Of a stretch of DNA of 9,768 nt, positions 1 to 9,768 are shown in pieces (within the stretch, counting starts at the first letter, position 1; every line of letters begins with the position of its first letter). The stretch covers positions 1-9,768 of the forward strand of contig JAFGBW010000243.1 of the NCBI GenBank assembly GCA_016932965.1, in the 5' to 3' direction. The notes beneath the pieces are model-generated. The model did no database searches. It was not told where the DNA came from and saw only the letters and a program-made list of their open reading frames with translations. The stretch comes from Candidatus Auribacterota bacterium. Lineage in GTDB: Bacteria; Auribacterota; JAFGBW01. Position numbers and translations under genes: made by a program.

Positions 1-878
1 GACTGATCCTCATTTTCTTTTATCCGGACAGGCTCACTGCCGGCAGAAATTTTATCCGGAAAAGGATTCCCGGGTATCTTGATTTTCATTTCATTTGCGT
101 TTGTGTCATCGGGTTTGGCCAAAGGGGTCATGGAAGCAGTCAGAGCCGCCGCCAAAACCGATGCTGTTTCACCGGGATCGTCAGTCGTATCTTCTTTCCG
201 GGATGAATTGAGTTTTGACAAATCAATCACCGGCTGGTTTGGCATACTGGTTTTCATGTTTTGCATGTAAGCTTTCATTTTTTCCAGGTTCCGCTTTGCA
301 ATCTTCTGACGCGCCTCGTTTTCCATCTGGGTTGCCTCCATGGCCACCCTTCTGTCTGATGCTGACGGATTTTTAGGAGCCAGCGCGGCGCGGCGGATCT
401 GTTCAGCCCTTGAGATGGTTTCCTCCGGGGTTCTGCCGCGGGAGGTGTTTAAGGTGACATGACCGCCGACGGCGTAAAATTTTCCATCAGGTCCCCGTCT
501 GTATTCATACTGGGGCATGCTGGCTAACGCTCCTCCCACTGCCTGGTGGGCGGACTCATGTTGCCGGACTTCAGTGTCCCTGGCTTTCAGGGCTTCCAGT
601 TCCTTTTTCTCCTTCTCAGACAGGTCCCTGGTTCCGCTCAGGTCAAAAACCGTGTCTTTCTTTAAGTCAGCAGAGGTAGCGTTTGTATTTTCAGTCTGAT
701 TATATTTCTGGATTTCTTCATTTTTCTTCCAATAAAAATTATTTATAACATTATCATTACGAACAGGTTGAGATTTTTCTGAATGTCGTGAATCAACAAA
801 ATAACCTTCTTTCTGAATCAGCCTGAAAGGCTGGGGAAATTCATAGGTATAATTGATAGAACTGATATTCATTTGCAT
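1..878 (-). CDS. SprA-related putative metalloprotease (partial, C-terminus off window)
   Basis: The frame is open from ATG 878 down to base 1 (292 codons seen), so the C-terminus is missing. Residues 107-111 read HESAH, a zinc-binding HExxH motif inside RQHESAHQAVGG. Soon after come a Y-x-Y-R-R-GPDG segment (about 125-132) and KFYAVGGHV (133-140). This order, HExAH..GG, then GPDG, then YAVGG, is the hallmark of the SprA-related family (Pfam PF12118), which is annotated as putative metalloproteases of unknown substrate. Residues 1-80 are polar and low in complexity, with no signal peptide. A Glu/Lys/Arg-rich helical stretch (about 86-106) precedes the HExxH. After about residue 150 the chain is helical and Met/Lys/Gln-rich, then becomes a polar, probably disordered tail. 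A second in-frame ATG at 872 is an alternative start. The gene is divergent from the giant AAA-propeller gene, so it need not share its role. The family call rests on motif recall; the proteolytic activity is inferred. Confidence 0.8.
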   Translation of the reverse strand, partial: MQMNISSINYTYEFPQPFRLIQKEGYFVDSRHSEKSQPVRNDNVINNFYWKKNEEIQKYNQTENTNATSADLKKDTVFDLSGTRDLSEKEKKELEALKARDTEVRQHESAHQAVGGALASMPQYEYRRGPDGKFYAVGGHVTLNTSRGRTPEETISRAEQIRRAALAPKNPSASDRRVAMEATQMENEARQKIAKRNLEKMKAYMQNMKTSMPNQPVIDLSKLNSSRKEDTTDDPGETASVLAAALTASMTPLAKPDDTNANEMKIKIPGNPFPDKISAGSEPVRIKENEDQ

Positions 879-880
879 AT

Positions 881-886
881 TTCTCC
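881..886 (-). promoter_or_regulatory. Ribosome binding site of the SprA-related gene
   Basis: On the minus strand GGAGAA lies just before the start. The GGAG core is 4 bases from ATG 878 and 10 bases from the in-frame ATG 872. The first spacing is short and the second slightly long, so the true start could be either. The choice changes the protein by only two residues. Confidence 0.6.
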
Positions 887-1049
887 ATATCCTATATCGG
901 CAGATCATGGAAAAACTTTAGCAGAATCGCATATATTTTTTTATAATAGGTTAAAAACCACAAAGCCCGATGAATGAATCCATTTTCCAACAATAATCAG
1001 GGCCCTTGTAATCATCCTTTTCCGGATCATATAAAAACATCCACGGACC

Positions 1050-1170: not shown

Positions 1171-1245
1171 ATGTTTAAAAAAATCACAGGTTATCTGATA
1201 TTTTTTCTGACTGGAATCTGGCTGACTTTCCGCACTTTATCTGCG
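1171..1245 (+). other. N-terminal signal peptide or signal anchor of the giant protein
   Basis: Residues 1-25 show a short basic start (MFKK), a hydrophobic core of about 15 residues (YLIFFLTGIWLTF) and LSA before TEMPP, a plausible signal peptidase I site after residue 25. There is no cysteine lipobox. Residues just after the core carry several Arg and Lys (21, 35, 40, 53, 59) and few acids, so by the positive-inside rule an N-out/C-in anchor is also possible. That orientation would keep the ATPase in the cytosol. Confidence 0.65.
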
Positions 1246-4200
1246 ACTGAAATGCCCCCGACTTCTTTACAACGGCAAAGTATTGGGAAAGTCACCTGTT
1301 CGGTTTCGAGCATGACATTGGCACCTCGCAGCCCTTTTCAACCCCGGACTTCAGGATCATCTTCTGAACTTCCGGTTCTTCCAGATTTGAATGACGAAGT
1401 ATTCCTCGGCAGGGACAATCTGGAACTCATGGAACTGTCATATTCTGAACTGGCTGAATTGACCCGGGATTTGAATGATTTCGAAGACAAAATAAGGGGA
1501 GACCCATCTCTTTTTGAAATTTCAAAAATGCTCATCTCTCTCAGGTCTCAATACCGTTTCAGCCAGGATGTACTGGCTGTCCTGAAGCTTTTAAAAGGAA
1601 GGGTTGAAAATCCATTCAGCCACGCTTTGATATTCGGATTCTACAACCAGTATGCTGATCTGGCTTCAACCGGAAGTGAAAAATCAGATCTGCTGAACCA
1701 TTTTATGTCCCATTGTCAAAAATGGCTGAAAGGAATGGATCCTGCCACGTCTGAGAATACCGTTTTAAACATCCTCTATCCTGATAAAAAGGAATGGAAT
1801 GATATTGAAAAGAAAACCGCGCGAATGCTGATCATGAACACCCCGGCGATGTTCATGGAAAAACCCGGCTCTGACAGGGAATTGATGAAAGCCTTTAAAA
1901 GCGTGGCCCCCTCCGCCAAAATCAGGAGCGTGTATCTGCATCCGTTTTCCGATGAGTCCCATTTACTGGGACGTAAAATCCCCAGAAAAAATCAGGCTGG
2001 ATTCGAATACGGATACGGTGAAATTTTAAGAACCATGGAGGCAGCCAGAAAAAATCCAAAAGAAAAACATATCCTTTTATTTAAAAACACTGATCCGCTG
2101 GAACCCGGCATCCGGACGCTCATGCAGGAAATCTTACGACTCAGGGAGATTCGGGACACCAATCTTCCTGAATTCATGAAGCTTCCAGACAACATGCAGA
2201 TCATTTTTACCATGGATCACGAAATGGACCTCGAAGATGATTCCTTCATGGACCGCCTGACAGTAAAAAAGATCGCCCCCAGCGGGCCGGTCCCGGATAA
2301 ACGGCTGGATTTGTCCGTTACATGGAGCGACGTCAAAACCGTGCGGGTTGAAAAAGGAATCCTGATTTTACCCCATGCTCAAATTCCCCTCGGGGCCGGA
2401 TTCACTGATCTGACCACTGAAAATCTCGGTGAAGAACTCTATAAACGCCTGGAACTGGTCCTGGATGAAGACACGGTCCTCATGCTGGAAGCCATGCAGA
2501 TGAGCGTTGAAAAAGGAGAAACCATCTTAAGGATCGAAGGATCCTCCGGGGTTGGAAAGACATTCACAGCCAGGCAGTTTGCGACTCTCACCGGACGGAA
2601 ATTTTCTTCCAATCCTGTCAGCCAGGCAACAGACATTTCAGAATACATCGGCTTCTATGAACAGGACGAATCAACCGGACGTTTTCATTTCAATATCCGG
2701 ACCGCGTTCAGGGAAATCCTGGAAAAGGGCGGGGTCATCGCGCTCAGCGAAATAAACGCATTGGTGGACAATAACGACAAGGTGAGTCTTTCCTGGTGGC
2801 TGGAGCAATTGGCTGAAGCCGAGCCTGACAGCGACGGTTATAAAACCATCTATTTGTCTGAAATCCCAACCACATCGGTTGATTTTGATCCTGATAAACT
2901 TGAAAAAATCCGGGTGCATCCAAAAGCCCTGGTCATAGCGGACACCAATCCTGAGGCGGAATACACGACCCGCGGAGCGTTTCCGGAAATATTTGATCTC
3001 AACACGGCCAGTGTCCGGGTCGGCGAATTCATCCGCAGGGAAAACAGGCAGTCCTCCATCCGGAGGATCAATCTCGGAAAAATTGAAAATCATCTGGAAT
3101 TTTTCCTGAAGTCAGACTGGAAAATCCAGGGACAGGTCATTGCAAAAGGCATCACCCAGCGCGGGACTCTGACCACCTTGAGGCAAAAGGCGGCGATGCT
3201 TTTCAATACGATGGTCCAGGCCTACCTGGAGGGGGAAATCGGAAGCGAAGAAACCGTCATCTTCACCAAAAGGGAGCTCAAAAGGTTTAGTGAAGATATC
3301 CTTTACGCCAAAACCGTTCTGAAAAAATCCGATGAAGACTCGCTCAAATACGCCTGTTCCCTGCACCTCACTCACCGCTGGAATTCCAAGGAAGACCAGC
3401 AAAAGGCCGAAAAAATCCTGGGCATCCATTTTGACTCCGCCGGGTTCCCTGAATTCTCCCTTTCTGAATTCATCCGGGATCAGTCTCTTGTAAAGAAAAG
3501 AACCGTTCATATGAACGCGGATCCCAAAACCGACATGACGCGCGAGATTGAACTCATCCGGAAAGCCAATCCGAAGTTAAGGATCAAGTCCCTGCCGGCG
3601 ACCGATGAAACCAACCGGCTCATGCTGGAGGGAGGATGGGTTGCCGGAGACCAGGGAAGACTCGAACTGGCCAGGGGGGTTTTGGGCAGGATGATTGACG
3701 AGGCTTTGCAGGCTGATGACGGCGAAGAGGTCATGTACGTGATTGAGAATGCCCACAATATTCCTCCCCAGGAAATCATCGCCCTGAATGAATTCCTCCA
3801 GGACCGGATCTTAAAGATCAAAGGCAAGGAAGCGGGCAGGCAGCCATTGAACGCGCATGTTCTTTTCATCAGCCGCATGGACTCTCAGGTGGAATGGTCC
3901 CAGGCTGAAAAATCGCGGGCCGTTCCCTTCGGATATCATCCGAACAGGAATGACATTGAGACCGCTTTCATCAGACGGCTTCAGGAGGAGAATATCGAAT
4001 GGGCAGAATTTAAAACCCAGATGGTTGAAATATTTTCCGGCCTGGATCAGAAATTTGAGGAGCGTTACAAAAGTCTGGAAGTGTATGAGTCCCATGTATC
4101 CCTGACACGATACGAACAGTTCCTGGACGAGGTTTTCTTTGTTCTGAAACATTTTCCGGTCAAGGATTATGAGGCCTGTTTTCTTCAGATCCATGAGATC

Positions 4201-7200
4201 ATTGATCTGATTTATATTAAAAGCATTCAATTAAGGCCGGAATCATTCAGGGACATCATGGAATGGTATGGAAATTCCCTGAACTACCCAAGACATTTTC
4301 TTTTTCCCCGGTATTTTGAAAGAAGGAGAAGGGAGGCATTAAAAACCGTGCCCAAAGCTGCGGCCCCTTCCACCTGGCAGGAAAAATTCAGGGAAAAGCA
4401 AACCGAACTCGCTGATGAGACTTCCTCCGAGCAAAAAATCTCCCGTGCCCGGACCCTGTCCCGCATGGTCAAAGAACATCCCGGTCCTGATGAATGGGAG
4501 GACAGGGAAAGGATCAACAAAGAACAGCTGGAGCAGGGTATGGTGTTTACCTCAGATGACGTTAAAAGAACCATAGGCGATTATCAAAAGAACATCCATG
4601 CCAGTCTGTTTTTATCAGGAGGAAGACTGACCGTGGCAGGCGACGGGGGAGAAATCAGAATATGGGATCCCCTGGAAGCAACCCCCGGGGATACTCTAAA
4701 CGGATGGCGGACAATCGGTCGTCATCCGGAAGATGTTAAAAAAATACAGGCATTACCAGACGGAAAACTGGTGGTTCTCCTTAAAAAGGGCATCATCCAG
4801 ATCTGGAATCCGGAGGAGGCCATACCGGGAGACCTGGAATCCGGCTGGCAGACCATTAAAGTTCCTTATGACTATTCCATTCAGATCCATGCTCTTTTAG
4901 ACGGAAGAGTGGTTGTGATTGGAGAGTATGGAGCCATTCAACTTTTAAATCCCGAAGAACTCCGCCCTGAAGATGTTCTGTCAGGCTGGACTACCATTGG
5001 AACCAAAATGGGAATGAATGTTTCTGTACGGGAATTATCGGATAAAAAAATAATTTTTGGTTCATCAGAAGGCAAAATTCATCTCTGGAATCCAGAGGAG
5101 GCCATACCGGGAGACATGAAATCCGGCTGGCACTTGATTGGCGATCCCGGAGATGAGGATTCTTATATCAATCAGATTGAAGAGTTGCCGGATAAGAGGG
5201 TGCTCACAGGGAACCGGTATACGGGTGAAATAAAAATCTGGAATCCGGCGGAAGCCGTCCCGGGAGACCTGGAATCCGGTTGGAAGACGATCGGAATTTA
5301 CGGAAAAAATTTAACAGCCATGTGTAAATTATCAGACGGAAGGCTGGTTGCGACCGGAGCCGGGGGGGAAATAAAAATCTGGAATCCGGCGGAGGCCATA
5401 CCGGGAGACATGGAATCCGGTTGGACGACGATTGGAGATTATGATGGACTGGAAGCAAATACCATACAGGAATTACCTGACGGAAATCTCATGATTGCCG
5501 GAGAGGGCGGAAAAATCTATATCCTTGAACCATCCCCTCAATATCTCCTTGCAGATAAAGAAGCCGGAACATTGATTTCTATTGCTACCGGGACATTGTA
5601 CAACCTTTCCGATATTTCCTCTTCCTCTGTCACCCCCCTGGAACCGAGATCAGAGCGTCCCTGGCAAGAGGAGCTTAAAGACAAAAGCGATGCTCTCGCT
5701 GACGAGACCCGACCGAAAGAAAAGCTAAGGAAGGCACAGGCCATGGCCCGAATAGTCAAAGCCCATCCTGAAGAAGAGGTGTGGGAAGACAAAGGGACAA
5801 TCAATAAAGAGCAGCTTCAGCAGGGAATGGTGTTTTCAGGAGCTGAGGTTAGAAAGACGGCAGGTGATTATCATAGTGATATAGAGACCAGCTCGATATT
5901 ATCCGGAGGCAGACTGGTTGTTGGAGGCGATAGCGGGGAAATTAGAATATGGAATCCTCTGGAAGTAAAAGAAGAAGACCCTCAAAGCGGATGGCAGACT
6001 ATAGGCCGTTTCCCTGATCGGATAAAAGAAATCCAAACATTAACTGATGGAAAACTAGCGGTACTTCTTGAATCAGGAGATCTCCATCTGTGGAACTCTA
6101 AGGAAGCGATTCCGGATAATCCTCAATCCGGATGGAAACCAGTGAGAGTGCCTTTGTTCTATCCAATGAGAATTCAGGCTATTTCCGGCGGGAGGCTTGT
6201 TGTGATGGCAGATCAAGGAAAGATTTCTATCCTGAATCCTGATGAAATCAAAGAGGATGATATTGAATCAGGGTGGACCTTGATAGGGACTATAATTGGG
6301 ATGAATGTTTCAGTCAGGGAATTATCAGATAAAAAAATTATTATTGGTTCATCCAAGGGTAAGGTCCATCTGTGGAATCCTGAGGAAGCGATCCCGGGTA
6401 ATCCTCAATCAGGATGGCGTCTTATTGGGGAAGACCCGACAGGACAATCTTATATTATGGTAGAAGAATTACCGGGTCATGGAGTTGTCACATGTAATAG
6501 GTATACCGGAGAAATAAAACTTTGGAATCCTGAAGAAGCGATCCCGGGCAGAGCTCAGTCCGGATGGAGGATTATCGGTAATTATGGAGAACAATTAACC
6601 GCTATGCTGAAATTATCCGATGGAAGGCTCGTGGTTGCGGGGGTGGGTGGAAAAATTAAACTGTGGGATCCGGCTGAAGCCATTCCGGGTGATAGCGAAT
6701 CCGGGTGGAAAGTCCTCAACGATTATGACGGATTGATTGTCAATACATTCCAGGAATTATCTGACGGCAGCCTGATGGCGGCGGGAGAGGGAGGAAAAAT
6801 TCGTATTTTTGAATTGACTCAGCAATTCCTGTGTTCTGATAAAAAAAGAGGAAAGTTAATTTCTGTTAATACCGGCATATCGTATAATATTTCAGACATT
6901 CATTCACCTTCCGTCACCCCCCTGGAACCCCGGTCAGAACGTCCCTGGCAGGAGGAACTGAAGGAGAAACAGAATCGGCTTGCCGATGAGACCATACCGG
7001 GCCGAAAAATCTCACAGGCCAGACGTATCACCAGACTGGTCAACGCCCATCCGGATCCTGAGGAGTGGGAGGAAGGAGTGTCCCTCAATAAGACTGACCT
7101 GGAACAGGGCATGGTGTTTGTTCCGGACTGGGTGAAGGAACAGTTGATAAAACAACTTCCCTACGGCGTCGCATTCACGACCCAGCCAATTCCCGCTTGC

Positions 7201-9768
7201 ACACTCTATCCTCAGGGAGCGATAGCAATCGGAGGAGTCGGGGCAATTTATTTATTTGATTTTGCCAACCCCGGAAAAAAACCTCAGTCCATCAAAAAAA
7301 ATATTGATCAGTATTTTATTCTGTCAATCCAGTTGCTTCCCAAAAGCAGTAAATATCCACAAGGGGCCCTGGCTGTAGCGGGAGAAGGTATTAAAATCAT
7401 GGAAGCAGGTCAAGCAACTACCGTAGCCGTGGCAACGCAAGTTGAAATCATGATTTATGATTTCAATGAGCCTCAGAAAGGTCTTCTCCCAATCAAGGAT
7501 AAACAAGGAACAGCGATCAGTTATGGAGAGGATGTTAGTGTAATGCAGGTATTACCGGATGGACGAATAGCCGTGGCGAGGGAAAAGGGTGAAATAATAA
7601 TTTATGACCCTTCCAGGCCAGACAAAAAACCAAAAGCATTTAAAACAAATTATGGCGGGGGTACTGTCAGGTCAATGCAGGTATTGAAAGACGGACCGTT
7701 GGCTGGTCATATCGCTGTGGCTGGTGATGGCGGCCAAATAATGATTTATGATCCTGAAAATTTAGAAAAAGAACCAAAATCCTCCGGTAATTATGAGGAA
7801 GATATTTTTTCCATGCAGTTACTTCCCGATGGCCGGCTTATTGTAGCCGGAGGAGGAGGTGAGTTAGCCACAATATCACTCAATCCAAAATGCGTGATGG
7901 CTGATAAAGAAATCGGGTCATTCATCAATGCTGAAACTGGAATTGAACATGACCTATCCAGACTTCATGCAGAAGCCGTCACTTTGCAGGAACCAAAAAG
8001 ACAGATCCCCTGGCAGGAGGAGTTGAAGGGGAAACAAGACAAACTCACTGATGAGACTCGGCCTGAACAAAAACTCCCCCAGGCTAGAAGTATTGCAAAA
8101 ATAGTGAAAGCCCATAGAGATCCTGAGGAATGGGAAGAAAAGGCAACACTCAACAAATCCGACCTGGAACAGGGCATGGTGTTTAGGGCGGGAAAGTTGC
8201 AGGAAAAATTCATGGAGGGGGATGGAAATGATTTTACAGGTTTGGAAATATTATCCGGGAACCGTCTTGTCGTGAGAACAGGAGGCAGAATAAAAGCATA
8301 TGACATCAGTACAAAAAAAATGCTTCCTTTACCGGTAAGTTATGAAATTCATATTGCCGCCATTCATTTGATTTCGGAAAACCGTCTGGCTGTGGCGGAA
8401 GATACAGGGGAGATAAGAATTTTTAATTTAACAACAGGGAAGGAAGAATCCTTTTATTGTCACTATGGAGATTCGGTTAAGGCCATGCAATTATTGCCGC
8501 AAAACCGTCTGGCTGTGGCAGGTTCCGGAGGTAAAATAAAAATTTATGATTTAACAACCGGGAATGAAATCCCTTTTGCGGGAAATTATGGGCATACCGT
8601 TTATTCCATGCAGCTTTTGCCTGATAACCGTTTGGCTGTAGCGGGTGTCGGGGGTGAAATTAGAATTTACGATTTAAAAACAGGGGAGCATGAATCTTTC
8701 CCTGTGAATTATGGTGAAGCGGTTTTTGCCATGTGTTTATTGCCTGATAATTGTTTAGGCGTTGCAGGTATAGGGGGGGAGATAAAACGTTATGATCTCA
8801 CAACTGAAAAAGAACTTCCCTCTTTAGGCCAATATGGAAATGCTGTTTATTCCATGCTTTTACTTCCGGACGGCAGGCTTTGCGTGGCAAGTGACGGCAG
8901 CGAGCTTATTACAATAGAATTTTCTCCCATAGGCGTTATGGTCGACAAAGATGCAGGGATATTCGTTTCAGCACAAACCGGAATTAACTATCCTGTTTCT
9001 TCAATCCCCTCAGATTCCGTCACCATCCTGGAACCCAGATCAGAGCGCCCATGGCAGGAGGAGTTGAAGGAGAAACAAGATAAACTCGCTGATGAAACCC
9101 GGCTTGATCAAAAACTCTCCCAGGCCCAATCCTTGGCCCGCATCGTGAAAGCTCATGGTGATCCTGAGGAATGGAAGGAAATGACAACACTCAACAAAAC
9201 TGACCTGAAAGAGGGCATGGTGTTTGAAAGCGAATCAAATTTTAAAAAAACCATTGGAAATTATGGAGATAGTGTTCAGACCATCCAGGAGTTATCCGAC
9301 AAACGACTTGTTGTGGCTGGAGACGGAGGGAAAGTCAAAATCTGGAATTCTGAAAAAGCAATTCCGGGCAATCCTGAATCCGGCTGGGAGACAATTGATG
9401 ATTATGGAGATAGTGTTTTGACCATCCAGGAGTTATCCGACAAACGACTTGTTGTGGCTGGAGACGGAGGGAAAGTCAAAATCTGGAATCCAGAAGAACC
9501 TGATAAAGGTCTGCAATCGATTGGAAATTATGGAGATGGTGTTAAAACCATCCAAGAGTTATCTGACAAACGAGTTGTTGTGGCTGGCGGAAAGGAAGTC
9601 AAAATCTGGAATCCAGAAGAACCTGATAAAGGTCTGCAATCGATTGGAAATTATGGAAATCTTATTTTAACCATCCAAAAATTATCCGACAAACGACTTG
9701 TTATAGCGGGATTTGGAGGGGAAGTCAAAATCTGGAATCCTGAAAATGCACAACCAGGCAATCCTGAA
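1171..9768 (+). CDS. Giant AAA (midasin/dynein-like) and multi-propeller protein, partial at 3' end
   Basis: The frame is open for 2866 codons to the window edge, with no stop. ATG 1171 is chosen because a TAA in the same frame lies directly before it (1168-1170). The ribosome binding site is weak (only TTGAG, about 10 bases upstream), and the next ATG, codon 28, has no visible site. Order of parts: hydrophobic N-terminus (about 5-25); unassigned helical region (about 30-215); three AAA-like modules (about 219-363, 451-710 and 777-985), only the middle one with a Walker A (GSSGVGKT, 457-464); helical linker to about 1060; then five WD40-like propeller units separated by constant spacers. No family for the whole chain is known to me. 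The combination suggests an ATP-driven machine or sensor in which the propellers bind partners. The hydrophobic N-terminus would send it out of the cytosol, which is hard to reconcile with ATP use. The C-terminus and total length are unknown. Confidence 0.93.
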   Translation, partial: MFKKITGYLIFFLTGIWLTFRTLSATEMPPTSLQRQSIGKVTCSVSSMTLAPRSPFQPRTSGSSSELPVLPDLNDEVFLGRDNLELMELSYSELAELTRDLNDFEDKIRGDPSLFEISKMLISLRSQYRFSQDVLAVLKLLKGRVENPFSHALIFGFYNQYADLASTGSEKSDLLNHFMSHCQKWLKGMDPATSENTVLNILYPDKKEWNDIEKKTARMLIMNTPAMFMEKPGSDRELMKAFKSVAPSAKIRSVYLHPFSDESHLLGRKIPRKNQAGFEYGYGEILRTMEAARKNPKEKHILLFKNTDPLEPGIRTLMQEILRLREIRDTNLPEFMKLPDNMQIIFTMDHEMDLEDDSFMDRLTVKKIAPSGPVPDKRLDLSVTWSDVKTVRVEKGILILPHAQIPLGAGFTDLTTENLGEELYKRLELVLDEDTVLMLEAMQMSVEKGETILRIEGSSGVGKTFTARQFATLTGRKFSSNPVSQATDISEYIGFYEQDESTGRFHFNIRTAFREILEKGGVIALSEINALVDNNDKVSLSWWLEQLAEAEPDSDGYKTIYLSEIPTTSVDFDPDKLEKIRVHPKALVIADTNPEAEYTTRGAFPEIFDLNTASVRVGEFIRRENRQSSIRRINLGKIENHLEFFLKSDWKIQGQVIAKGITQRGTLTTLRQKAAMLFNTMVQAYLEGEIGSEETVIFTKRELKRFSEDILYAKTVLKKSDEDSLKYACSLHLTHRWNSKEDQQKAEKILGIHFDSAGFPEFSLSEFIRDQSLVKKRTVHMNADPKTDMTREIELIRKANPKLRIKSLPATDETNRLMLEGGWVAGDQGRLELARGVLGRMIDEALQADDGEEVMYVIENAHNIPPQEIIALNEFLQDRILKIKGKEAGRQPLNAHVLFISRMDSQVEWSQAEKSRAVPFGYHPNRNDIETAFIRRLQEENIEWAEFKTQMVEIFSGLDQKFEERYKSLEVYESHVSLTRYEQFLDEVFFVLKHFPVKDYEACFLQIHEIIDLIYIKSIQLRPESFRDIMEWYGNSLNYPRHFLFPRYFERRRREALKTVPKAAAPSTWQEKFREKQTELADETSSEQKISRARTLSRMVKEHPGPDEWEDRERINKEQLEQGMVFTSDDVKRTIGDYQKNIHASLFLSGGRLTVAGDGGEIRIWDPLEATPGDTLNGWRTIGRHPEDVKKIQALPDGKLVVLLKKGIIQIWNPEEAIPGDLESGWQTIKVPYDYSIQIHALLDGRVVVIGEYGAIQLLNPEELRPEDVLSGWTTIGTKMGMNVSVRELSDKKIIFGSSEGKIHLWNPEEAIPGDMKSGWHLIGDPGDEDSYINQIEELPDKRVLTGNRYTGEIKIWNPAEAVPGDLESGWKTIGIYGKNLTAMCKLSDGRLVATGAGGEIKIWNPAEAIPGDMESGWTTIGDYDGLEANTIQELPDGNLMIAGEGGKIYILEPSPQYLLADKEAGTLISIATGTLYNLSDISSSSVTPLEPRSERPWQEELKDKSDALADETRPKEKLRKAQAMARIVKAHPEEEVWEDKGTINKEQLQQGMVFSGAEVRKTAGDYHSDIETSSILSGGRLVVGGDSGEIRIWNPLEVKEEDPQSGWQTIGRFPDRIKEIQTLTDGKLAVLLESGDLHLWNSKEAIPDNPQSGWKPVRVPLFYPMRIQAISGGRLVVMADQGKISILNPDEIKEDDIESGWTLIGTIIGMNVSVRELSDKKIIIGSSKGKVHLWNPEEAIPGNPQSGWRLIGEDPTGQSYIMVEELPGHGVVTCNRYTGEIKLWNPEEAIPGRAQSGWRIIGNYGEQLTAMLKLSDGRLVVAGVGGKIKLWDPAEAIPGDSESGWKVLNDYDGLIVNTFQELSDGSLMAAGEGGKIRIFELTQQFLCSDKKRGKLISVNTGISYNISDIHSPSVTPLEPRSERPWQEELKEKQNRLADETIPGRKISQARRITRLVNAHPDPEEWEEGVSLNKTDLEQGMVFVPDWVKEQLIKQLPYGVAFTTQPIPACTLYPQGAIAIGGVGAIYLFDFANPGKKPQSIKKNIDQYFILSIQLLPKSSKYPQGALAVAGEGIKIMEAGQATTVAVATQVEIMIYDFNEPQKGLLPIKDKQGTAISYGEDVSVMQVLPDGRIAVAREKGEIIIYDPSRPDKKPKAFKTNYGGGTVRSMQVLKDGPLAGHIAVAGDGGQIMIYDPENLEKEPKSSGNYEEDIFSMQLLPDGRLIVAGGGGELATISLNPKCVMADKEIGSFINAETGIEHDLSRLHAEAVTLQEPKRQIPWQEELKGKQDKLTDETRPEQKLPQARSIAKIVKAHRDPEEWEEKATLNKSDLEQGMVFRAGKLQEKFMEGDGNDFTGLEILSGNRLVVRTGGRIKAYDISTKKMLPLPVSYEIHIAAIHLISENRLAVAEDTGEIRIFNLTTGKEESFYCHYGDSVKAMQLLPQNRLAVAGSGGKIKIYDLTTGNEIPFAGNYGHTVYSMQLLPDNRLAVAGVGGEIRIYDLKTGEHESFPVNYGEAVFAMCLLPDNCLGVAGIGGEIKRYDLTTEKELPSLGQYGNAVYSMLLLPDGRLCVASDGSELITIEFSPIGVMVDKDAGIFVSAQTGINYPVSSIPSDSVTILEPRSERPWQEELKEKQDKLADETRLDQKLSQAQSLARIVKAHGDPEEWKEMTTLNKTDLKEGMVFESESNFKKTIGNYGDSVQTIQELSDKRLVVAGDGGKVKIWNSEKAIPGNPESGWETIDDYGDSVLTIQELSDKRLVVAGDGGKVKIWNPEEPDKGLQSIGNYGDGVKTIQELSDKRVVVAGGKEVKIWNPEEPDKGLQSIGNYGNLILTIQKLSDKRLVIAGFGGEVKIWNPENAQPGNPE
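1825..2259 (+). other. AAA-like module 1, degenerate
   Basis: Residues about 219-363. The strand MLIMNTP (219-225) sits where a P-loop should start, but there is no GxxGxGK[ST]. Next comes PFSDESHLLGRKIP (258-271), matching the (T/S)D-x-x-x-L-L-G segment that follows Walker A in midasin-type AAA units. HILLFKN (300-306) occupies the Walker B place with K and N where D and E are expected. IIFTMDH (344-350) matches the sensor-1 strand, and FMDRL (359-363) resembles the end-of-core RF/RL segment. The module is probably unable to bind or split ATP. The assignment is by pattern and by parallel with modules 2 and 3. Confidence 0.55.
2521..3300 (+). other. AAA module 2 (AAA_5/midasin-like) with intact Walker A
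   Basis: Residues about 451-710. ILRIEGSSGVGKTFTARQF carries a full Walker A (GSSGVGKT, 457-464). DISEYIG (about 488-494) is the conserved segment after it. GGVIALSEINAL (520-531) is the Walker B strand with the catalytic Glu (527) kept and the Mg-binding Asp replaced by Ser (526). ALVIADTNPEAE (586-596) is a typical sensor 1 (I-A-x-x-NP, Asn 593). Near 698-706, FTKRELKRF resembles the lid motif (S-x-R-x-L-x-R) of this group. It is the only module likely to bind nucleotide; the Ser substitution makes hydrolysis uncertain. Confidence 0.8.
3499..4125 (+). other. AAA-like module 3, degenerate
   Basis: Residues about 777-985. The strand RTVHMNADPKTD (777-788) takes the place of the P-loop but lacks the GK[ST] core. 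LPATDETNRLML (808-819) parallels the (S/T)DE-x-x-x-L segment of module 1. VMYVIENAHNIPPQEIIALNEFLQDR (854-879 in full) is very like the Walker B plus helix of midasin units (hhhhDEINLAP..hLN.LL), with E859-N860 in the DE place. HVLFISRMDS is the sensor-1 strand, and VSLTRYEQFL (976-985) is a lid-like motif. It is probably structural, completing a partial AAA ring with modules 1 and 2. Confidence 0.6.
4375..4548 (+). repeat. Spacer module copy 1 (58-residue core only)
   Basis: Residues from WQEKFREKQ to EQGMVF. This is the first of five copies of a predicted helical spacer rich in Glu, Lys and Arg, with landmarks WQE, LADET, ARxLxRxVK, P-x-x-WE, NK-x-x-L-x-x-GMVF. It joins the AAA half to propeller 1. 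It lacks the 37-residue DK-x-x-G...TG..Y...SVT-x-LEPRSERP lead present in the other copies, as expected if that lead belongs to the exit from a propeller. Confidence 0.9.
4549..5550 (+). repeat. Propeller unit 1, seven WD40-like blades
   Basis: Seven blades are read from strand patterns of the type TIG-x-Y / LPDGRLVVAG / GGEIKIWNPEEAIPGD-x-ESGW. Blade ends (SGW or NGW) fall at 4707, 4848, 4989, 5130, 5283 and 5424; blade 7 ends near 5538 with no SGW. Blades 2, 3, 4 and 6 are exactly 141 nt; blade 5 is longer (153 nt) owing to an insert before NRYTGEIKIWN. Seven is the classic WD40 number, but the WD dipeptide is mostly WNP here. The likely role is a rigid protein-binding platform; the partner is unknown. 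Confidence 0.8.
5551..5835 (+). repeat. Spacer module copy 2 (full 95 residues)
   Basis: Begins ADKEAGTLIS, passes TG-x-x-Y and SVTPLEPRSERPWQEEL (ending at about 5676), and ends QQGMVF. It is exactly 285 nt, like copies 3 to 5. The core from Trp 5662 is 174 nt. The lead part probably closes propeller 1, and the helical core connects to propeller 2. Confidence 0.9.
5836..6834 (+). repeat. Propeller unit 2, seven blades, duplicate of unit 1
   Basis: Blade ends (SGW) fall at 5994, 6135, 6276, 6417, 6567 and 6708. Blades 2, 3, 4 and 6 are 141 nt and blade 5 is 150 nt, mirroring unit 1. Each blade resembles its counterpart in unit 1 more than its own neighbours: blade 4 of both has GMNVSVRELSDKKII and HLWNPEEAIPG, and blade 5 of both has NRYTGEIK. 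The unit therefore arose by duplication of a whole propeller plus spacer (about 1.28 kb), not by adding blades. Confidence 0.85.
6835..7119 (+). repeat. Spacer module copy 3 (full 95 residues)
   Basis: Begins SDKKRGKLIS and contains SVTPLEPRSERPWQEEL, the same 17 residues as in copy 2. It ends DLEQGMVF. Length 285 nt; the core starts at Trp 6946. This copy has HPDPEEWEEG in the middle. Confidence 0.9.
7120..7899 (+). repeat. Propeller unit 3, about five visible blades, divergent
   Basis: The blades have IYDP or YLFDF in place of IWNP, and no SGW ends. Three are clear: LPDGRIAVAREKGEIIIYDP, GHIAVAGDGGQIMIYDP and LPDGRLIVAGGGGELATISL. Two earlier, longer blades carry the repeated phrase YPQGA before the strand. 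An extra segment around 7399-7440 (EAGQATTVAVATQ) interrupts blade 2 between two IMIYD/IKIM-like strands and may be a decayed extra blade. At 260 residues the unit is shorter than units 1 and 2 and its blade count is uncertain. Confidence 0.65.
7900..8184 (+). repeat. Spacer module copy 4 (full 95 residues)
   Basis: Begins ADKEIGSFIN and ends DLEQGMVF; 285 nt, with the core from Trp 8011. This is the most divergent lead: LQEPKRQIPWQEEL replaces LEPRSERPWQEEL, yet the length is unchanged. The core has LTDETRPEQKL and RDPEEWEEK. Confidence 0.9.
8185..8940 (+). repeat. Propeller unit 4, six blades of 41 residues
   Basis: The blade pattern is NYG-x-x-V-x-x-MQLLPDNRLAVAG / GGEIRIYDLTTG. The IYDL strand recurs at 8419, 8542, 8665, 8788 and 8911, exactly 123 nt apart each time. 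A less regular first blade (RLVVRTGGRIKAYDI) precedes them, giving six. The unit lacks the IPG..SGW blade tail of units 1 and 2, so it belongs to a different blade subtype within the same protein. Confidence 0.8.
8941..9225 (+). repeat. Spacer module copy 5 (full 95 residues)
   Basis: Begins VDKDAGIFVS and contains SVTILEPRSERPWQEEL, then LADETRLDQKLSQA. It ends DLKEGMVF. Length 285 nt, with the core from Trp 9052. Its presence shows that another propeller follows, and units may continue past the window. Confidence 0.9.
9279..9348 (+). repeat. Perfect 70-bp direct repeat, copy A (copy B 9420-9489)
   Basis: These 70 bases recur without mismatch at 9420-9489, 141 bases downstream, in the same reading frame. 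They encode TIQELSDKRLVVAGDGG and the KVKIWN strand. Perfect identity including third codon positions points to a recent duplication or gene conversion. Confidence 0.9.
9420..9489 (+). repeat. Perfect 70-bp direct repeat, copy B
   Basis: Identical to 9279-9348. It overlaps the start of the 62-bp repeat pair (9473-9534 and 9596-9657), so this blade shares recent sequence with both its neighbours. Confidence 0.9.
9473..9534 (+). repeat. Perfect 62-bp direct repeat, copy A (copy B 9596-9657)
   Basis: It recurs exactly 123 bases downstream and codes for KIWNPEEPDKGLQSIGNYG. It spans the end of one blade and the start of the next, which fits slippage or unequal crossover by one whole blade. Confidence 0.9.
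9596..9657 (+). repeat. Perfect 62-bp direct repeat, copy B
   Basis: Identical to 9473-9534. The blade just before it has lost one residue relative to its neighbours (VVVAGGKEVKIWN against LVVAGDGGKVKIWN), an in-frame change within the otherwise recent array. Confidence 0.9.

Follow-up and report, generated by a model that had tools for sequence, protein, structure and literature searches.

The locus analysed here raises the question of what kind of machine is encoded by a bacterial gene which joins several AAA modules to a series of beta-propellers in one giant chain. The window, i.e. the whole stretch of DNA that was analysed (9768 bp), is the entire contig C29 of genome G000, whose assembly comprises 3.14 Mb in 300 contigs. 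A first-pass annotation had proposed a giant protein with midasin-like AAA modules and propellers in a single open frame of 2866 codons. This frame was found at 1171..9768 (+), with no stop before the contig end, and the protein is real as described, but it is only the first half: the window appears to carry the 5' part (2866 aa) of a giant gene which continues on contig C262. The neighbouring gene at 3-908 (-) belongs to an SprA-related family (PF12118, E 3e-30).

Three AAA modules were placed in the window protein by HMMs built without the window sequence. AAA1 lies at 1798..2298 (+) (aa 210-376; E 6e-29) and is further supported by an AF2 model, fold matches and the motif table; AAA2 lies at 2458..3432 (+) (aa 430-754; E 2.5e-20) and is supported by Pfam (AAA_5 at aa 456-530, E 5e-6) and the motif table. 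AAA3, at 3454..4260 (+) (about aa 762-1030), has an HMM match over aa 762-892 (E 1e-9) together with hhalign and alignment evidence. The sole Walker A, GSSGVGKT (aa 457; nt 2539-2562), is located in the middle module AAA2, accompanied by a Walker B-like motif (..SE..). AAA1 has neither a Walker A nor the catalytic Glu and retains the arginine-finger Arg (DDSFMDR); AAA3 is also devoid of a Walker A and carries an Arg in WSQAEKSR. The AF2 model of AAA1 (aa 200-430), for which eight odd-module sequences were aligned as input, gave a mean pLDDT of 70.6, with values of 80-90 across most of the core. In Foldseek it matched NorQ, CbbQ, McrB and dynein AAA domains at E about 1e-8, and in VIA it was superposed on NorQ with Z 16.7 (rmsd 3.6 A, 159 residues) and on a dynein AAA domain with Z 15.9 (rmsd 3.0 A, 160 residues). 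AAA1 is hence predicted to have the AAA+ fold. Both in fold and in sequence (AAA1 fold matches; AAA_5 matches) the modules are nearest to MoxR, NorQ, CbbQ, McrB and dynein, as expected of members of the MoxR clade.

The assignment of AAA3 rests on profile matches, with hhalign of the family profiles giving P about 99% against AAA1 and AAA5, and this module could not be folded confidently alone. A three-module model (aa 171-1100, three sequences) was poor (pLDDT 45.6), and the Foldseek matches of this model, among which Rea1 and dyneins ranked first, are supportive at most. Searches with single modules against solved structures returned nothing at E 1 for AAA3 and only McrB (E 0.18) for AAA1.

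The AAA modules are followed by five units, in each of which a helical linker of 60 residues leads into a WD40-type propeller; the units start at aa 1065, 1494, 1922, 2277 and 2624 according to the blade register. Repeated blades and WD40-like signatures, as required for WD40-type beta-propellers, are present in these units, and the Pfam WD40 match on the window protein has E 3e-25. Unit 1, with seven blades, occupies 4363..5649 (+) (Pfam, blade register); unit 2, at 5650..6933 (+), is 61% identical to it; unit 3 lies at 6934..7998 (+) (blade register) and unit 4 at 7999..9039 (+) (Pfam, blade register). Of the last unit, at 9040..9768 (+), only the first four blades fit on the contig before it ends. 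The five propeller units and the Walker A in the middle of three AAA-like modules, both claimed in the first-pass annotation, are thereby borne out, and a sixth propeller is found on C262. The same annotation named the lack of any predicted AAA fold outside residues 451-710 as a reason to give up its reading; AAA1, which lies outside them, is predicted to have this fold, and the annotation thus passes its own check for AAA1.

The remainder of the gene is probably to be found on C262, another contig of the same genome, in a minus-strand, 5'-open frame of 2621 codons. It consists, in order, of three blades, a linker, the sixth propeller, AAA4-6, an HExxH motif (HELGH), an acidic stretch and a vWA domain with the MIDAS motif DFSGS, and it stops about 440 residues past this motif. 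The DxSGS and TDG parts of the MIDAS are kept and the middle Thr appears to be replaced by Asn. Pfam vWA matches were obtained in C262, G251, G348 and G140; the acidic stretch before the MIDAS contains 26-29% D/E in C262, L039 and G012, and the HExxH domain of C262 has no Pfam match. The domain after the C262 MIDAS (aa 2396-2597) is also present in several giant ORFs of G020 (L033-L038; 700-4600 aa), which show no AAA ring matches. Genes resembling pgk and fba are among those next to this frame on C262.

The strongest evidence that C29 and C262 belong to one gene is the intact 4261-aa frame of G251 (Omnitrophota), which has the same module order. C29 aa 58-922 matches G251 aa 435-1287 with 35% identity (E 6e-138), and C262 matches G251 aa 2461-3176, 3127-3515 and 3915-4194, all within that single frame. 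AAA and propeller queries hit only these two contigs in the genome. The four blades at the end of C29 and the three at the start of C262 add up to one seven-bladed propeller, C262 terminates in an exact tandem blade repeat, and the codon usage of the two parts is correlated (0.94). Exact tandem repeats are a usual break point of assemblies. An end-to-end overlap between the contigs was looked for and not found, and the junction remains unbridged by sequence. This gap, along with the occurrence of several such giants in some relatives (G243), leaves room for two separate paralogous giants, in which case the window protein would not be the MIDAS-bearing one. Such an arrangement is very improbable: C29 holds AAA1-3 and C262 holds AAA4-6 without overlap and with each part in a single copy, the blade counts complete one propeller, and the intact frames of G251 and G012 hold both parts in order. 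One gene encoding a protein of at least 5487 aa is the reading inferred from the comparison with relatives.

Members of the family were found in Omnitrophota, and the small phylum to which the window belongs contributed two genomes. A profile of the AAA6-HExxH-MIDAS region, applied to 384 Omnitrophota genomes, matched 23 at E 1e-10, some of them only in the HExxH part. In a set of 384 relatives of the window's genome, some 43 of which are from its own phylum, matches were confined to the window's genome and G012; a direct protein search with the window AAA1-3 in 59 relatives (E 1e-5) returned the window's own genome only. Window-like N-terminal halves are rare: six Omnitrophota genomes gave a hit at E 1e-15, and in G251 alone did the match cover the full length. 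L039 comes from an Omnitrophota MAG, and L040 is the same contig as that of G012, filed as 'Chlamydiae bacterium'. In the ring-bearing relatives the order AAA1-6 is the same, and in most of them the HExxH and MIDAS domains follow AAA6. G251 has a transglutaminase-like domain at the position of the C262 HExxH domain, and about 930 aa at its AAA3/AAA4 junction, in which two propeller-like units were read from the sequence and Pfam gives a single weak propeller match. The G012 frame (5976 aa) is collinear and without propellers.

Some further observations were made in these genomes. The G012 frame (L032) runs about 2650 aa past the MIDAS (aa 3300-5976). This extension includes several membrane-like stretches, and a second copy of a segment found close to the N-terminus of the frame also lies after the MIDAS. 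Omnitrophota ORFs L052-L058 (about 1140-1220 aa) match in the HExxH region only, i.e. this domain also occurs without an AAA ring. Several ring-type giants (multiple paralogues) lie on contigs C13, C11 and C2 of G243. In G221 the ORF that follows the giant in tandem (L067 16524-18998) has a nearly identical copy of its leader, and L065 of G348 shows a Pfam death effector domain at aa 297-343 (E 3.5e-5, below the curated cut-off).

Comparison of the six modules revealed two groups. In profile-profile comparisons AAA1/3/5 match each other (P 98.4-99.2) and AAA2/4/6 match each other (P 98.6-99.8), with much weaker matches between odd and even modules. P-loop and catalytic Glu are present in AAA2/4/6 of all 13 members in the motif table, although the family members are only about 20% identical, and neither is present in AAA1/3/5 (the AAA1 cell of G353 in this table actually shows its AAA5). 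The P-loop of G251 AAA4, whose cell in the table is empty since the local match began too late, reads GPSGAGKT. An Arg aligned with the Rea1 arginine finger is found almost always in AAA1 and AAA5 and wherever alignable in AAA3, and the even modules have mostly non-Arg residues at this position, Lys being common in AAA4 and AAA6. Since P-loops are contributed by the even modules and arginine fingers by the odd ones, three composite ATP sites are predicted, and the simplest reading is that the ring may be a triplicated pair of one inactive and one active AAA module. How many of these sites hydrolyse ATP remains open, because AAA2 has S/N at the Walker B Asp position and AAA4 and AAA6 often have Lys at the finger position.

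The N-terminus of the window protein (MFKKITGYLIFFLTGIWLTFRTLSA|TE; 1171..1245 (+)) was read from the sequence as signal-peptide-like, and similar N-termini were found in relatives with a known start. Such a start is present in most family members with a readable or complete start, the start codons of G251 and G353 being uncertain. As a background rate, 13 of the 38 ORFs in the loci retrieved satisfied a crude signal-peptide rule, although some of the giants themselves are in this set; in this rough test the feature looks enriched among the giants. The signal peptide suggests that the machine may act outside the bacterial cytoplasm, its export and location being inferred. An exported ATPase fits badly in one respect, because ATP is not expected outside the cytoplasm.

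The reading which we prefer, with a probability of roughly 0.6, is that the gene encodes a midasin-like machine comprising a six-AAA ring, three ATP sites, propellers, an HExxH domain, a MIDAS and export. Six AAA+ modules of MoxR/midasin/dynein type would close into a ring within a single chain. Between AAA3 and AAA4 this chain carries six propellers of seven blades each, mounted on helical linkers; AAA6 is followed by the HExxH (zincin-like) domain, the acidic stretch and, near the C-terminus, the vWA/MIDAS. AAA2/4/6 would give P-loop and catalytic Glu and AAA3/5/1 the arginine finger, such that three sites alternate around the ring. The target would be bound by the MIDAS and by the propellers, the latter serving as added binding surfaces. 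By analogy with midasin and NorQD (PMC8837202, PMC13036017), the MIDAS may dock on the ring and ATP hydrolysis may shift the ring so that the target is pulled or twisted; it would then be processed by the protease domain, which is of HExxH type in this protein and transglutaminase-like in G251. The likely function is that of an exported AAA-driven remodeller or processing machine, with ATPase activity, location and substrate inferred. No experiment supports ring closure, ATP hydrolysis, force, proteolysis, export or substrate, all of which are inferences; the analysis does show the module order and the motifs, the continuity of the gene as judged from its relatives and, as a prediction, the AAA fold of AAA1.

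A more specific form of this proposal, in which an exported single-chain AAA+ machine has arrived independently at the midasin layout by pair triplication, has three sites as in F1-ATPase and draws ATP from outside its own cytoplasm, e.g. inside a prey or host cell, is possible but doubtful. In an unlikely alternative, the protein is an exported surface or adhesion protein whose degenerate ring serves as a scaffold without hydrolysing ATP, the work being done by the propellers and the MIDAS. The P-loop is missing in three of six modules, the signal peptide predicts a location without ATP, and Omnitrophota giant ORFs have been proposed to act in cell-cell adhesion (PMC10066038). This degeneration is at odds with the retention of P-loop and catalytic Glu in the even modules of every member at such low identity, and of the arginine finger in the odd ones.

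These results matter in several respects. Parts of otherwise unannotated Omnitrophota giant proteins can now be assigned. AAA rings built from six concatenated modules, as in dynein, midasin and RNF213, are considered to be an invention of eukaryotes, and a bacterial family with the midasin layout provides a second case for asking how they arise; the pairing of the modules suggests that a dimer was triplicated. With P-loops and arginine fingers divided almost strictly between the two groups of modules, the three-site ring can be tested, and the presence of a signal peptide leads directly to the question of where such an AAA+ machine obtains its ATP.

Among known systems, the dynein heavy chain and RNF213 likewise have concatenated AAA modules in a giant chain, but they are eukaryotic with other accessory parts, and the dynein motor chain is not known to have a MIDAS or propellers inside. 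The NorQ/NorD, CbbQ/CbbO and other MoxR/vWA pairs have a MoxR-type AAA+ ring with a vWA/MIDAS partner (PMC13036017); NorQ, however, is a homohexamer of single-module subunits with a separate vWA protein, whereas the present family has six unlike modules and the vWA in one chain. The MoxR-vWA beta-propeller ternary systems (subsystem 4, PMC7159879) share MoxR AAA+, vWA, beta-propeller and an unusual P-loop. With these same three ingredients, and with the AAA6 P-loop GxTGTAKT of several members resembling their unusual GXXXTAKS motif (PMC7159879), the giant could be a fused single-chain form of the conflict systems of Kaur and colleagues, acting in immunity. We consider this improbable, as PADLOC gave no match for either half (C29, C262), no operon was seen and the family is one chain with a signal peptide. 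The ternary systems have a MoxR ring of separate subunits encoded by a separate gene, a propeller of about four blades C-terminal on the vWA protein and a third, variable component, and no concatenated ring; here all parts are in one chain, with the propellers between AAA3 and AAA4.

Midasin is the closest of the solved proteins to the whole-ring family profile (E 2e-47; next NorQ, 9e-6), and AAA4 alone matches it at E 6e-57. The single-domain scores of AAA4 are closer (best midasin domain 39.6 bits, NorQ 32.9 bits), and the gap is larger for the ring since scores over repeated modules add up. A Midasin AAA lid match above Pfam's cut-off was also found in G348 AAA5. The midasin-like reading of the first-pass annotation is supported in this way, and G251, with the same order, and the Omnitrophota family provide the architecture in other genomes. 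Its AAA modules stand, but the full protein has six of them (AAA1-3 on C29, AAA4-6 on C262, the join being inferred) and a MIDAS domain, rather than three AAA modules. It could not match the protein to any described system; the outline is in fact that of midasin, and it remains true that no described bacterial family with this layout, and no relevant paper on bacterial midasin-like proteins or an Omnitrophota midasin, was found in the open-access literature searched (most subscription papers and preprints being outside its scope).

The shared layout (a single chain with six AAA modules, an acidic stretch and, towards the C-terminus, a MIDAS), together with midasin being by far the best solved match, would also suit a eukaryotic midasin gained by horizontal transfer with propellers added later. 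The module-by-module correspondence expected from such a transfer is absent: the best Rea1 partners are out of position, AAA4 pairing with Rea1 AAA5 and AAA6 with Rea1 AAA4. A signal peptide or protease-like domain is not known from midasin, and transfer is accordingly held to be a poor explanation. The functional ATP sites of Rea1 are AAA2-AAA5 (PMC6286127), whereas the family is paired odd/even with P-loops in AAA2, AAA4 and AAA6 only. The family can be said to resemble midasin in outline, without being shown by our tests to be midasin or its orthologue; it differs in being bacterial, in its much shorter linker, in the propellers within the ring-forming region, in the protease-like domain and signal peptide, and in having odd/even pairs with three P-loops against midasin's four functional sites.
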